Assembly: GCA_017396945.1 (NCBI GenBank)
Contig: JAFQKI010000010.1
Span: 1-64,000 of the forward strand
Direction: 5' to 3'
DNA length: 64,000 nt
DNA from: Muribaculaceae bacterium
GTDB lineage: Bacteria; Bacteroidota; Bacteroidia; Bacteroidales; Muribaculaceae
Part shown: positions 54,910 through 58,570 of the stretch, one piece after another
How positions within the stretch are numbered: position 1 is the stretch's first letter
Layout: each line of letters opens with the position of its first letter
Position numbers and translations under genes: made by a program
The notes under the pieces: model-generated
What the model was told of the DNA's origin: nothing
The model's database searches: none
Seen by the model: the letters and a program-made list of their open reading frames with translations, nothing else

Positions 54910-55269
54910 TCAACAACCCATTAATTTTTTCATTAGTTCGTTTATACGAGTACGACTATGTATAAAAATTTTATAATGTCTGTTTAAATCTTTTCTGTCA
55001 GTAAGGCGCAATACGCCATCATAAGAAAGTTCATAAACACAACTGAGATTTATGCAAGCATCGCGTGTAACTTTTTCAAGGTTATTGCCATAGACAGGTG
55101 AAAAAAGTTGGTAAAGTTCTGATACAGATTTGTGTACTGTTAATCGTCTGTTACCTGATAATACTATATCTGAAGAATTGGTTTTCTCGGTGCTTACACT
55201 GAAATAAATTAAATCTTCAACATCAAAGATGTGAAGAGTGCGATTGGCGCTTATTGCTAATTTTTTCAT
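54910..55269 (-). CDS. LytTR-like DNA-binding domain protein (stand-alone)
   Basis: This 119-residue protein appears to be a single LytTR domain without a receiver or membrane part. The pattern fits LytTR: an initial strand with MKKLAISANRTLHIFDVEDLIYF (read as strand, edge, strand), RLTVHKSVSELYQLF for the middle strands and helix, KVTRDACINLSCVYELSYDG in place of the usual R-x-H-R-S-x-x-V-N-L segment, and IFIHSRTRINELMKKL at the end. Such domains bind direct repeats of about 9 bp spaced about 21 bp apart. Repeats of this geometry lie upstream of the two neighbouring genes. It is last in the unit with the acidic membrane protein, behind a hairpin. Confidence 0.72.
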   Translation of the reverse strand: MKKLAISANRTLHIFDVEDLIYFSVSTEKTNSSDIVLSGNRRLTVHKSVSELYQLFSPVYGNNLEKVTRDACINLSCVYELSYDGVLRLTDRKDLNRHYKIFIHSRTRINELMKKLMGC

Positions 55270-55300
55270 AATAATTATTATATAGGAGAAGAGTATAAAA

Positions 55301-55332
55301 AATAGGATAATGTAATTTTACATTATCCTATT
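55301..55332 (-). terminator. Perfect 15-bp hairpin between the acidic protein gene and the LytTR-like gene
   Basis: AATAGGATAATGTAA (55301-55315) pairs with TTACATTATCCTATT (55318-55332). An A-rich tract before it (about 55296-55302) gives U residues on the minus-strand RNA, so it can terminate transcripts from the acidic protein gene. A -7-like box (55357-55364) lies upstream of it, so RNA starting there would also contain the hairpin before the LytTR start codon: a possible attenuator. Confidence 0.65.
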
Positions 55333-55356
55333 AATGGATAGTTATAAATTACACCT

Positions 55357-55364
55357 CAAAGGTA
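55357..55364 (-). promoter_or_regulatory. Possible -7 box (TACCTTTG on minus strand) of the LytTR-like gene
   Basis: CAAAGGTA on the plus strand, about 90 bases before the ATG at 55269 and just after the stop of the acidic protein gene. The hairpin 55301-55332 lies between this box and the gene. Confidence 0.4.
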
Positions 55365-55392
55365 TAAAATAAACTACTTTATTCAAAATTTA

Positions 55393-56181
55393 TCAATAAG
55401 CGTCAGCTATAATATCATTGCTATCATTATAGTCAATAGAATTTTCATCTATATCATAATCTTCATAACATGTAGGGTCATATTCTTGTGAATTGTCGAT
55501 ACCGATATAAGCTGAGTCGTTATTAATCATGTGAATTTCCATATCATTTGGATCTTCGGCGAGGCTATTAGTAACAGTTATATCGGCAAAACCATCATTA
55601 TTAACATCAATAAGTAAATCTTCTCTGCCATCATCATTATAAGCGATAGCTACATTACCTTCAAAACCTACCGGATCAGAAAAAGCCACATCGGTATAAT
55701 CAATATCTTCGGGTTCAACAATTTGATCTTCAGGAATAATGACTTCCTCATCATTTACAGCGACTACATTATTACTTGGTTCTACTTCGGTTATTGTTTC
55801 TTCCGTATTATCAGCTATATTATTTTCATTAACAACTTGTTGAGGCTCTACTTCTTCAGCGAGTTTGGTATTATAGAGTTTACCATTCCATTCAAAAGTC
55901 TCTAAATCTTCACCACGAGCTGTACTAAAAGCTTCAGCAAATGACATATCTTCAAAATTTTGATCGGTTGTGATTTCTTCAGTGACATCTGCTGTATCAG
56001 TTGCAGCCGAACTGTCATTTGATACTGAACTAAAGGCTCCGTCATTGTACATTGCCGCCGCTACACCGACACCGGCACCTGCCGCGCCTATTGCTACCGC
56101 GCCTGCCGCTACTGTTTTTGCACGAGAAGAAGATTTTTGATTGTTATCAATAACTTTGGTTTCAATTTTTTTAGTTGACAT
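55393..56181 (-). CDS. Acidic single-span membrane protein of unknown function
   Basis: This 262-residue protein has a short basic N-terminus, then a Gly/Ala-rich membrane segment (about residues 23-45, AAGAVAIGAAGAGVGVAAAMY), then a very acidic extracytoplasmic part rich in Asp, Glu and Asn. It contains SFAEAFSTARGED and FEWNGKLYNT (~residues 79-110), a pattern I recall from uncharacterised Bacteroidales proteins. Near residues 185-205 it has NDDGREDLLIDVNNDGFAD, an FG-GAP/EF-like calcium-binding pattern. There is no signal peptidase site. Its promoter shares a ~50-base block with the caspase gene, so joint control is likely. No function can be stated. Confidence 0.7.
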   Translation of the reverse strand: MSTKKIETKVIDNNQKSSSRAKTVAAGAVAIGAAGAGVGVAAAMYNDGAFSSVSNDSSAATDTADVTEEITTDQNFEDMSFAEAFSTARGEDLETFEWNGKLYNTKLAEEVEPQQVVNENNIADNTEETITEVEPSNNVVAVNDEEVIIPEDQIVEPEDIDYTDVAFSDPVGFEGNVAIAYNDDGREDLLIDVNNDGFADITVTNSLAEDPNDMEIHMINNDSAYIGIDNSQEYDPTCYEDYDIDENSIDYNDSNDIIADAY

Positions 56182-56228
56182 AATTTTTAAGTATTTAATA
56201 GTTTGACATTTGTTTTTTATTTACGATA

Positions 56229-56317
56229 CAAAGTTAATTATGAATTTTAATTATCAAAATAAATAAGTGATGAAATGAATGATTGTGAGTTATGAAATAC
56301 TGTTTTAGAGTGATAAG
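56229..56317 (-). promoter_or_regulatory. Promoter and three-repeat activator-like block of the acidic protein gene
   Basis: The -7 box is CAAAGTTA (56229-56236; TAACTTTG on the minus strand). From 56265, exactly 36 bases from the box start, come the repeats AGTGATGAA (56266), AGTTATGAA (56288) and AGTGATAAG (56309), 22 and 21 bases apart. About 39 of 50 bases equal the block at 57151-57203 by hand count. Confidence 0.6.
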
Positions 56318-56326
56318 TAAATTTAT

Positions 56327-57085
56327 TTATTGAATTATAAAAGGTGTGTTGCGATTGAAACGTCCTACCATTTGCGGTGTTTGGTCTGTGTTGTTTTTGA
56401 AACTCTCTTTTATAAAATCATAAGTTTCTCCTATGGTGATAATACCATCACTATTACTATCGGCACTGCCACCCAAACCATTTAAAAGCGAGCTTACAAA
56501 ATGACTGTTATAATTCTCTCCTACATAAGTATATGATAACATATTATGACGTGTTGAAGTTAAGATAATAACATTTGAACGACCGTTTTGAGCTATATTA
56601 CCCATATTGCTCCATGTGGATTGTGACGATGTTTCCTCAGGTGTGGTATTAAAAGATCCTGAATGGCAACTATTTACAATTATATATTTGTTTGTGGCTT
56701 TGCTGTTATGAAATATCTCACGCACTTGGCGAGTGTATAAATAACCATCATAAGTTGAAACTCCACCGTCATGACCATGGGTACTTATAAAAAATACTAT
56801 AGTATCATCTTTTTTAGCGTGTGAGAAATGTCTTTTGGCTACTTTTATTATATTTTCTGTTGTAGCTTCTTCATTAGTTAATAAAAGGAAGATACCGTTT
56901 TTGGCGGTTGATTTATATAAATTGTACAAATCTACGGCATCATTGTAAGATGATTGGTGGGGTGTTACATCATCTCTGTTATATTCACTTAATCCTATAA
57001 ATAAACCAAACGTGCGACTTTGCGCGGTTTGTGATAAACAAAGTATAGTAATTATTGATATTATTAAATTTTTTAAGGTGTTCAT
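56327..57085 (-). CDS. Secreted caspase-like protease (peptidase C14 family) with an EF-hand-like loop
   Basis: The start at 57085 (MNTLKNLIISIITILCLSQ) gives 252 residues with a signal peptide cleaved near AQS. A codon at 57115 would lie inside the promoter. The caspase fold begins with FGLFIGLSEYNRDD. The catalytic His is in STHGHDGG (His103 most likely) and the catalytic Cys is in NSCHSGSF (Cys140), the metacaspase-like dyad. Residues 209-220 (DSNSDGIITIGE) are a full 12-residue EF-hand-type calcium loop. There is no inhibitory prodomain, and the ~250-residue length is close to a bare p20/p10 unit. It is the first gene of the minus-strand set; substrate and role are unknown. Confidence 0.85.
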   Translation of the reverse strand: MNTLKNLIISIITILCLSQTAQSRTFGLFIGLSEYNRDDVTPHQSSYNDAVDLYNLYKSTAKNGIFLLLTNEEATTENIIKVAKRHFSHAKKDDTIVFFISTHGHDGGVSTYDGYLYTRQVREIFHNSKATNKYIIVNSCHSGSFNTTPEETSSQSTWSNMGNIAQNGRSNVIILTSTRHNMLSYTYVGENYNSHFVSSLLNGLGGSADSNSDGIITIGETYDFIKESFKNNTDQTPQMVGRFNRNTPFIIQ

Positions 57086-57114
57086 TATTCTGGTTTTATA
57101 TATTTGGCTTGACA

Positions 57115-57203
57115 CAAAGTTAAAAAATTTAATATGAAAATAGTATAAGGAAGTGATGAAACTTATGATTATAAGTTATGAATAATGGTTTTGAAGTGAT
57201 TAA
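57115..57203 (-). promoter_or_regulatory. Promoter and three-repeat activator-like block of the caspase gene
   Basis: CAAAGTTA (57115-57122) is the -7 box on the minus strand. AAGTGATGAA begins at 57151, again exactly 36 bases away. The repeats are AGTGATGAA (57152), AGTTATGAA (57174) and AGTGATTAA (57195), spaced 22 and 21 bases, as in the block at 56265. It lies between the caspase gene and the divergent MATE gene and could affect both. Confidence 0.6.
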
Positions 57204-57210
57204 ATTTGAC

Positions 57211-57218
57211 TAACTTTG
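57211..57218 (+). promoter_or_regulatory. -7 box TAACTTTG directly before the MATE gene
   Basis: The ATG at 57224 starts five bases after this box, so the mRNA is predicted to be leaderless. This supports ATG 57224 over the in-frame TTG at 57206, which is upstream of the box. Confidence 0.6.
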
Positions 57219-57223
57219 TAGTC

Positions 57224-58570
57224 ATGAAACACCTTTGGAGTAAATACAATGCTAATTATAAGTCTATTATAAAACTTGGCATCCCTATTTTGATAGGTCA
57301 GCTTGGTATGATAGTGGTGGGATTTGCCGACAATATAATGGTGGGAAAATACTCAACAGAGGCATTGGCATCGGCATCGTTTGTCAACAATCTTTTTAAT
57401 GTGGCTATATTTGCTTGTTTGGGATTTTCTTATGGTTTGACACCGCTCATCGGTGCGTTGTATTCTCAGAAACGCGACGATGCGATTGGTGATTTATTGA
57501 AAAACGGATTGTTGTTGAACATGTTGTTTGCATTGGTGGTAACAGGCATAATGACAGTTTTTTACTTCAATCTTGAAAATATGGGTCAACCGGAGGAATT
57601 GTTGCCTCTGATACGCCCCTATTTTTTGATATATCTTGCGGGAATGTTGACTACTTCATTGTTTAATGTATTTGCTCAGTGGGCTTATGCAATCAATCGT
57701 TCAAAAATGCCCATGTGGATTATTCTTATTTCCAATGTAATAAATGTCGTAGGCAATTGGCTGTTGATATATGGTAATTGTGGTTTTCCTGAAATGGGAT
57801 TGATAGGAGCCGGATTAAGCACTTTACTTGCACGTGTGTTTTGTCCGGTTGCGATTATAATAGTATTTTTCAGTTTTAGATGCTATAAATCTTATAGCAA
57901 GGGTTTTAGAGAGAGCAAAATTACAATAAACAGATTGTGTCAAGTCAATCGCACATCATGGCCTGTTGCATTGCAAATGTCGTTGGAGTCGGGATCATTT
58001 ACTATTGCGGCAGTAATGGCGGGATGGCTTGGAGCGATATCGTTGGCGGCTTATCAGATAATAGTAATTACAGGCACTCTCGGTTTCTGTATTTATTATA
58101 GCATAGCCGCGAGTGTGTCGGTATTGGTTTCAAATGCCGCCGGGTTATGTGATAATAAAGCAATGCGCCAAGTGGCATTTGCCGGGTATCATTTATTGTT
58201 GACATTGGCTGCGATATCATCAACTATTTTTGTGATTTTCGGTGAAAATATCATTGAATTCTTTACTAACGATGTGGCTGTGATAACAACTACTGTCACT
58301 CTTATATTTCCTTTGGTGTTGTATCAACTTAGTGATGCTACTCAGATAAATTTTGCCAACGCTTTGCGTGGCACTTCAAACGTGATGCCTATGTTGTGGA
58401 TTGCGTTTGTCAGTTATGTGGTTATAGGGATACCGGCTACTTATCTGCTTGGATTTACCGCTGGAATGGGTATTTATGGCATTATATTGAGTTTTTCGGC
58501 ATCGTTGTTTATGGCTGCGGCTTTGTTCCTTTTTTATTTTCTCAAAACGACACGTAAATATAAATGTTAA
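57224..58570 (+). CDS. MATE-family efflux transporter (NorM-like)
   Basis: This 448-residue inner-membrane protein exports drugs or metabolites in exchange for Na+ or H+. It has about twelve membrane helices in two related halves. The first opens with LGIPILIGQLGMIVVGFADNIMVGKYSTEALASAS, typical of MATE proteins. The second has WPVALQMSLESGSFTIAAVMAGWLGAISLAAYQI, with the conserved Glu after Leu in helix 7. Length fits. It diverges from the caspase gene, and the repeat block at 57151-57203 lies between the two promoters. Substrates cannot be deduced. Confidence 0.9.
   Translation: MKHLWSKYNANYKSIIKLGIPILIGQLGMIVVGFADNIMVGKYSTEALASASFVNNLFNVAIFACLGFSYGLTPLIGALYSQKRDDAIGDLLKNGLLLNMLFALVVTGIMTVFYFNLENMGQPEELLPLIRPYFLIYLAGMLTTSLFNVFAQWAYAINRSKMPMWIILISNVINVVGNWLLIYGNCGFPEMGLIGAGLSTLLARVFCPVAIIIVFFSFRCYKSYSKGFRESKITINRLCQVNRTSWPVALQMSLESGSFTIAAVMAGWLGAISLAAYQIIVITGTLGFCIYYSIAASVSVLVSNAAGLCDNKAMRQVAFAGYHLLLTLAAISSTIFVIFGENIIEFFTNDVAVITTTVTLIFPLVLYQLSDATQINFANALRGTSNVMPMLWIAFVSYVVIGIPATYLLGFTAGMGIYGIILSFSASLFMAAALFLFYFLKTTRKYKC

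Follow-up and report, generated by a model that had tools for sequence, protein, structure and literature searches.

The question raised by the 64 kb at the start of contig C5 (JAFQKI010000010.1) from a Muribaculaceae bacterium, hereafter the window, is what controls two neighboring genes, one for an acidic membrane protein and one for a secreted caspase, whose promoters share a block of direct repeats. The recovered genome amounts to 1.48 Mb and is 63.83% complete, and genes were called mechanically. Three genes of the window are concerned, all on the minus strand: a 119-aa LytTR-like protein (P0001; 54910-55269), a 262-aa acidic protein (55393-56181), and a 252-aa caspase-like peptidase (56327-57085). 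Their positions, first given in a first-pass annotation of this DNA, agreed with the window gene calls. That annotation had proposed that the LytTR-like protein activates the other two genes. The analysis described here makes it probable that both blocks are operators of a stand-alone LytTR regulator, most simply the 119-aa protein, which would switch on both genes.

The two blocks, putative operators located at 56265-56314 (acidic gene) and 57151-57200 (caspase gene) on the minus strand, match each other. They were identical at 39 of 50 positions, in accordance with the earlier hand count, and none of 5000 simulations (first-order Markov, both intergenic regions) reached this value, the best 50-mer identity obtained being 36 or less. 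The three boxes were identical at 24 of 24 positions between the blocks, and the spacers at 15 of 26. The first repeat, AGTGATGAA, begins at 56266 and 57152, the second, AGTTATGAA, at 56288 and 57174, and the third reads AGTGATAAG at 56309 and AGTGATTAA at 57195 (boxes 56266-56274, 56288-56296, and 56309-56317 in the first block; 57152-57160, 57174-57182, and 57195-57203 in the second). The annotated spacing of 22 and then 21 bases was found in both promoters, and comparison of the promoter blocks placed an identical -7 box, TAACTTTG, at 56229-56236 for the acidic gene and at 57115-57122 for the caspase gene (minus strand), with exactly 36 bases from its low end to the start of the block in both cases, as had been claimed. 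In the direction of transcription, TTCATCACT is the box closest to TAACTTTG and begins 38 bases 5' of it; the other boxes begin 60 and 81 bases from it. The window hence shows the arrangement of a LytTR operator, with 9-bp direct repeats that lie upstream of a promoter and are separated by 13 and 12 bases.

This arrangement was rare. The two-repeat pattern with at most two mismatches occurred twice in the window against 0.08 expected, and the genome search suggested by the annotation, run with the three-repeat pattern and at most three mismatches, found only these two sites in the recovered genome (reversed control, 0), where the block is therefore not widespread before unrelated genes. When two repeats plus TAnnTTTG at the window distance were required, both sites were recovered with no mismatch and only here in this genome, and 11 genomes of the same genus gave one match, with three mismatches.

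The 119-aa protein was compared with the LytTR proteins of relatives. All 13 relatives in the LytTR alignment (A3) matched PF04397, and hhalign placed the 119-aa protein collinearly on their profile over residues 1-105 with an E-value of 5.8e-4 and a probability of only 29%. Its profile score of 14.3 bits was above all of 2000 shuffles, and among 101 real proteins it outscored every non-LytTR protein, the 15 that scored higher being LytTR relatives. These comparisons pointed to homology with proven members of the LytTR family. A search of 148 genomes with P0001 found only itself, and its comparison with NCBIfam and PDB sequences gave only weak, unrelated matches. The label LytTR-like thus held for the collinearity with the relatives' profile and the score above shuffles, but not for Pfam, where there was no match. 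The protein is likely a regulator of a diverged LytTR-like type, judging by these profiles.

A gene cluster around the caspase is conserved in relatives. Caspase relatives were found in 33 of the 148 genomes, own genome included, and their recurring neighbors encode stand-alone LytTR, FHA, acidic, zinc-ribbon/FHA-like, PP2C, and Hanks-type kinase proteins. In Muribaculaceae the order is often LytTR, FHA, caspase, acidic protein, Zn-ribbon/FHA, PP2C, kinase. Named genomes searched with the LytTR alignment yielded 27 loci: eight from Muribaculaceae, Muribaculum or Paramuribaculum, seven from Porphyromonadaceae, four from Prevotellaceae, four from Bacteroidales, and four from others. The LytTR reading frame was annotated in 23 of them; in the 9.5 kb downstream of it, same-strand genes included the caspase in 21 cases, the acidic gene in 18, FHA in 17, Zn-ribbon/FHA in 17, PP2C in 12, and the kinase in 12; several of these loci stop at a contig edge, and six belong to genomes already seen. 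Furthermore, across 89 genomes of the window's family, the caspase was present in 18/18 genomes with a cluster-type LytTR match (E ≤ 1e-34, a cut chosen after the list was seen) versus 4/71 others. This co-occurrence is partly circular, since 13 of the 18 had supplied alignment rows because of their caspase; the remaining five (G014, G022, G027, G040, G085) also carry it.

The window itself holds only three of the cluster genes, in an order different from that of the relatives. The genes for FHA, zinc-ribbon/FHA-like, FHA-trypsin, PP2C, and kinase proteins are clustered elsewhere in the same genome (L076, C8:9391-18376). The recovered genome gave nine Pkinase matches, located on contigs C2, C3, C4, C11, C17, and C19 besides C8. 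Separately, loci L176, L178, L182, and L183 hold another group of stand-alone LytTR genes, with no caspase and often near very large proteins (1815, 2485, 693, and 1837 aa), and TTTCATACAT-like repeats lie 5' of the LytTR gene itself at L176 and L183.

The comparison of upstream regions in related genomes, also suggested by the annotation, revealed boxes that recur every 21-22 bases at constant distances from TAnnTTTG, so the operator geometry is conserved. In a lag scan of 24 upstream regions of acidic genes (23 from relatives plus the window), direct repeats were detected at 21 and 22 bases, with means of 6.79 and 6.25 versus 6.19 and 5.73 in 166 controls. A wider set comprised 45 acidic upstream regions outside the window, 43 from relatives and two from the own genome, after six named-genome loci repeating earlier genomes were dropped. 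TAnnTTTG lay within 125 bases of the start codon in 32 of the 45; the other 13, among them those at own C4 and C6 (box TTACTTTG), were not counted. In these promoters 37 of 38 TTCRT[CA] hexamers, distributed over 29 of the 32, stood 47-49, 68-71 or 89-92 bases before TAnnTTTG, versus none of the five hexamers found in 39 control promoters. The offsets had first been counted by hand on earlier acidic upstream regions and only the named-genome loci were held out; there, 13/13 hexamers in 11/12 promoters fell on the offsets (one locus, L134, being close to L059). Without two rows added after the motif had been seen in them (L119_10179 and L174), the counts were 35/36 boxes and 27/30 promoters. 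Because related species have promoters of common ancestry, the binomial value obtained is no true probability.

At these offsets stood 25/25 TTCGT and 14/18 TTCAT pentamers, the median for the 68 pentamers seen at least eight times being 8.5%. The consensus of 16 promoters was approximately TTTCGTCAAnAAAnCCCnnnGnTTCGnAA, followed by ATTTG near -33 and then TAAnTTTG. A stricter score of at least 10 was reached by 10/22 acidic genes (four in repeat genomes) versus 4/219 unlabelled genes, and three of these four lie within a cluster and the fourth directly after a LytTR gene. Boxes were also observed before two caspase genes of relatives. In G068 they stand 69 and 48 bases before TAATTTTG, and in G039 they stand 91, 69, and 48 bases before TTACTTTG, where an alternative -7 box would give 62, 40, and 19. 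The acidic gene beside the G039 caspase carries boxes too; in G068 the acidic gene adjoining the caspase has no TAnnTTTG, and three acidic genes in a row at another locus (L177) each have their own box-bearing promoter.

The LytTR reading of the repeats, drawn at first from their spacing, is now backed by this comparison. It is supported because in relatives the caspase and acidic genes adjoin a stand-alone LytTR gene, because the acidic promoters and two caspase promoters of relatives carry boxes spaced by 21-22 bases, and because the 119-aa protein matches the LytTR profile of the cluster over most of its length. Additionally, TTTCGTCA of the relatives is similar to the core sequence of AlgR, CCGTTCGTC, and triple repeats separated by 12-13 bp have been reported for the LytTR proteins RcoM and CoxC.

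Several observations weigh against this assignment. The 119-aa protein matched no Pfam family, and PF04397 found no match in the own genome at E ≤ 1; its identity to the 13 relatives is only 14-22%, so that it is highly diverged. The window boxes (TTCATAACT/TTCATCACT) and their offsets of 38, 60, and 81 differ from the family form of 48, 69, and 91, and boxes were found in only three of 24 caspase upstream regions (window, G068, and G039), the other 21 having none. Family-form sites at own C4, C6, and C9 suggest a second regulator, and in the 11 same-genus genomes the family pattern with at most two mismatches was no commoner than its reversed control (41 versus 38).

A second regulator is indeed the content of one alternative, in which the blocks are LytTR operators but are read by a second, canonical LytTR protein whose gene lies in the unrecovered third of the genome, and the 119-aa protein is a decayed or regulatory paralogue. 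The family-form sites just mentioned, the completeness of 63.83%, and the two adjacent LytTR genes that precede an acidic gene in the same-genus genome G003 all speak for it. Searches of the recovered own genome gave no LytTR-like protein besides the 119-aa one (one search profile contained P0001), and the window sites are unlike the family form, as would be expected for a diverged reader; we regard this alternative as unlikely.

Similarly improbable, in our estimation, is a circuit resembling the LytTR regulatory systems (LRS), in which the acidic membrane protein would keep the LytTR regulator inactive while being itself produced under the control of that regulator, as a negative feedback, and cleavage of the acidic protein by the caspase would relieve the inhibition. 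In LRS, LytTR regulators are paired with membrane proteins that inhibit them (PMC6193735); here the acidic and LytTR genes adjoin, and among the targets the acidic gene is the most regular. Nevertheless, LRS regulators activate their own operon via repeats, and TTCRT[CA] boxes, the one box form covered, were found in 0/9 of the LytTR-gene promoters with TAnnTTTG at the named-genome loci (repeat genomes excluded).

It is quite improbable that a repressor or a non-LytTR factor binds the sites and that the LytTR gene is a mere neighbor. Repression from three repeats is known for the LytTR protein CoxC (PMC11347149), but the box sequence, the 21-22 bp period, and the conserved LytTR neighbor point to LytTR, and in relatives the boxes are located upstream of the -33 region. 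That the two blocks merely reflect a recent duplication of a promoter, or resemble each other by chance, is very hard to credit: the spacers are fairly alike too, as a duplication would leave them, but they have diverged while the boxes stayed identical, no simulation reached the observed identity, and diverged relatives have a like geometry.

Returning to control by a stand-alone LytTR protein, most simply the 119-aa one, it would bind the three direct repeats just upstream of the promoter, where the boxes, two helical turns apart, would lie on one face of the DNA, and binding would activate the acidic and caspase genes together. The box set of the window, 10 bases closer to the -7 box than the family form, would be shifted by one turn, keeping the helix face. 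The caspase gene of most relatives appears to be transcribed together with LytTR and FHA. Since the relatives' cluster holds FHA, PP2C, and Hanks-type kinase genes, the input would probably be Ser/Thr phosphorylation through these proteins, as their gene company suggests; in the own genome such genes lie on a separate contig, C8. The output would be a protease of the envelope that probably depends on calcium and acts next to an acidic, calcium-binding protein, which may serve it as substrate, inhibitor or scaffold.

Several properties of the two products are consistent with such an output. The caspase matches Peptidase_C14 (PF00656, 4.4e-14) and has an apparent signal peptide, read by eye. In 22 aligned proteins H103 is invariant and C140 nearly so, and the window protein has both residues of this His/Cys dyad; it is hence predicted to be a peptidase of the caspase-fold family C14. 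An EF-hand-like loop, D-x-N-x-D-x-x-I-T-x-x-E, has invariant D209 and E220 and a nearly invariant D213 in the same alignment, and may bind calcium. Calcium-type loops in both the caspase and the acidic protein suggest a calcium-dependent action. The acidic protein (pI 4.05) is basic at its start and has a hydrophobic segment rich in Ala and Gly, and two short motifs of it recur in some relatives. When five sequences were searched, it matched the acidic profile acid5 at 1.5e-15, a value strongly biased by low complexity, and it gave a weak FG-GAP match under the cut-off. All 40 acidic proteins examined had a pI below 4.5, and 29 of them passed the hydrophobicity cut for a membrane segment. The two proteins would meet outside the inner membrane, as their sequences suggest. 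The caspase had no match in phages and five distant ones in plasmids. A known anti-phage defence system was rejected: PADLOC, run with ten proteins, gave no system-specific match, only matches of the caspase, kinase, and PP2C to models judged generic, the other given proteins being unmatched.

The annotation had named two genes as the regulon. Matched putative operators were indeed found at both, but the regulon is likely wider than the caspase and acidic genes, judging by further sites. Family-form sites with two mismatches and an offset of 48 bases are located in the own genome at C4:47744, upstream of genes for another acidic protein and then a Sel1-like protein (labelled by eye), at C6:10158, before two small membrane proteins, and at C9:4098, before a lipoprotein, with a fourth match on C15. 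Their count alone is no evidence, because the reversed control gave two; the C4, C6, and C9 sites are credible on account of acidic genes downstream, a further upstream box, and a -33-like TTGC at C6 and C9. Four sites without mismatch were found in the 11 same-genus genomes, three of them before acidic genes and one before a gene for a secreted protein. In G003 the acidic gene after the two LytTR genes (L174) has a box at 48, and more sites are present, some 5' of envelope genes (downstream genes being read by eye for some sites). Family-pattern matches numbered 25 versus 7 in the control in G003 and 29 versus 12 in G005, which has no strong cluster-type LytTR match; because G005 is enriched too, these counts alone are not clean.

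Taken further, and only tentatively, these data may delineate an undescribed system of Muribaculaceae and some neighbors, in which Ser/Thr kinase, PP2C, and FHA proteins control a stand-alone LytTR switch that turns on a secreted, calcium-dependent caspase and its acidic membrane partner, further acidic and envelope genes at other places stand under the same operator, and in this lineage regulator and operator have co-diverged, the operator having moved by one turn.

Other features of the region concern the neighboring promoters. A 14-pair hairpin followed by a T-run (55301-55332, minus strand; z of -3.84 for 55270-55365) is located between the acidic and LytTR-like genes, and also between TACCTTTG (55357-55364, minus strand), a possible -7 box of the LytTR-like gene found by eye, and the start codon of this gene. 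It is a candidate terminator of the acidic gene or a candidate attenuator of the LytTR-like regulator. On the other side, a divergent MATE-family gene shares its intergenic region with the caspase putative operator, and TAACTTTG lies few bases 5' of its ATG (57211-57224, plus strand). Because of this closeness the MATE-family gene may be leaderless or start later; it could also be influenced by the caspase operator. Sites resembling sigma-70 promoters numbered 26 versus 21.0, close to chance.

In this way a bacterial caspase gains a plausible transcriptional switch and recurring partners, and the role of secreted bacterial caspases becomes directly testable; some of them may be under coordinated signalling control. 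In gut Bacteroidales, eukaryote-like phosphorylation genes become linked to a LytTR regulator. The sharply defined operator (boxes 21-22 bp apart, 48, 69, and 91 bp before TAnnTTTG) can be searched in other genomes. Since L117, L121, and L125 come from strains or isolates, tests are possible without this metagenome species. The cluster is complete in L117, a Muribaculaceae isolate, and in L125, Muribaculum caecicola, the contig carries it as far as PP2C.

The annotation had known of no described system with this set of genes, and no description of the LytTR plus caspase/FHA/phosphatase set in Bacteroidales was found in the open-licence literature. A 2012 survey of prokaryotic caspase homologues names no such gene set in its section on operons (PMC3501461), and the available part of a survey of conflict systems is without LytTR (PMC7159879).

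Among known LytTR factors, AgrA binds two direct repeats upstream of promoters (PMC4227749), AlgR binds CCGTTCGTC (PMC4064291), and RcoM and CoxC use triple repeats with 12-13 bp spacers (PMC11347149). The window resembles them in having, upstream of the promoter, direct repeats of about 9 bp separated by 12-13 bp, RcoM and CoxC in having three repeats, and AlgR in the TTCGTC core of the relatives. It differs from all four in its stand-alone domain, the 119 aa holding neither the receiver domain of AgrA/AlgR-type response regulators nor a gas-sensing domain, in the FHA, PP2C, kinase, caspase, and acidic neighbors of the relatives, and in the sequence of its own boxes. The repeats of LRS measure 9 bp and mostly stand 12 bp apart, and TATCTTTG promoters are found in LRS-like operons of Bacteroides (PMC6193735). 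A soluble stand-alone LytTR protein with a nearby membrane protein partner and repeats about 12 bp apart are common to both. Here, unlike in LRS, canonical boxes were not found before the LytTR gene (0/9), so that no sign of autoactivation was obtained, the acidic protein has a single segment and is only a candidate inhibitor, and caspase and phosphorylation genes are present.

Kinase-PP2C-FHA modules likewise bring Hanks kinase, PP2C, and FHA genes together. Some such modules occur beside type VI secretion. Here, LytTR and the caspase are part of the cluster, and no secretion-system genes were recognised among the neighbors inspected (no model search being made). Finally, the caspase shares with prokaryotic C14 caspases and orthocaspases a caspase domain with a His/Cys dyad, and stands apart from them by its predicted secretion, its EF-hand-like loop, and its LytTR/FHA/PP2C/kinase cluster.

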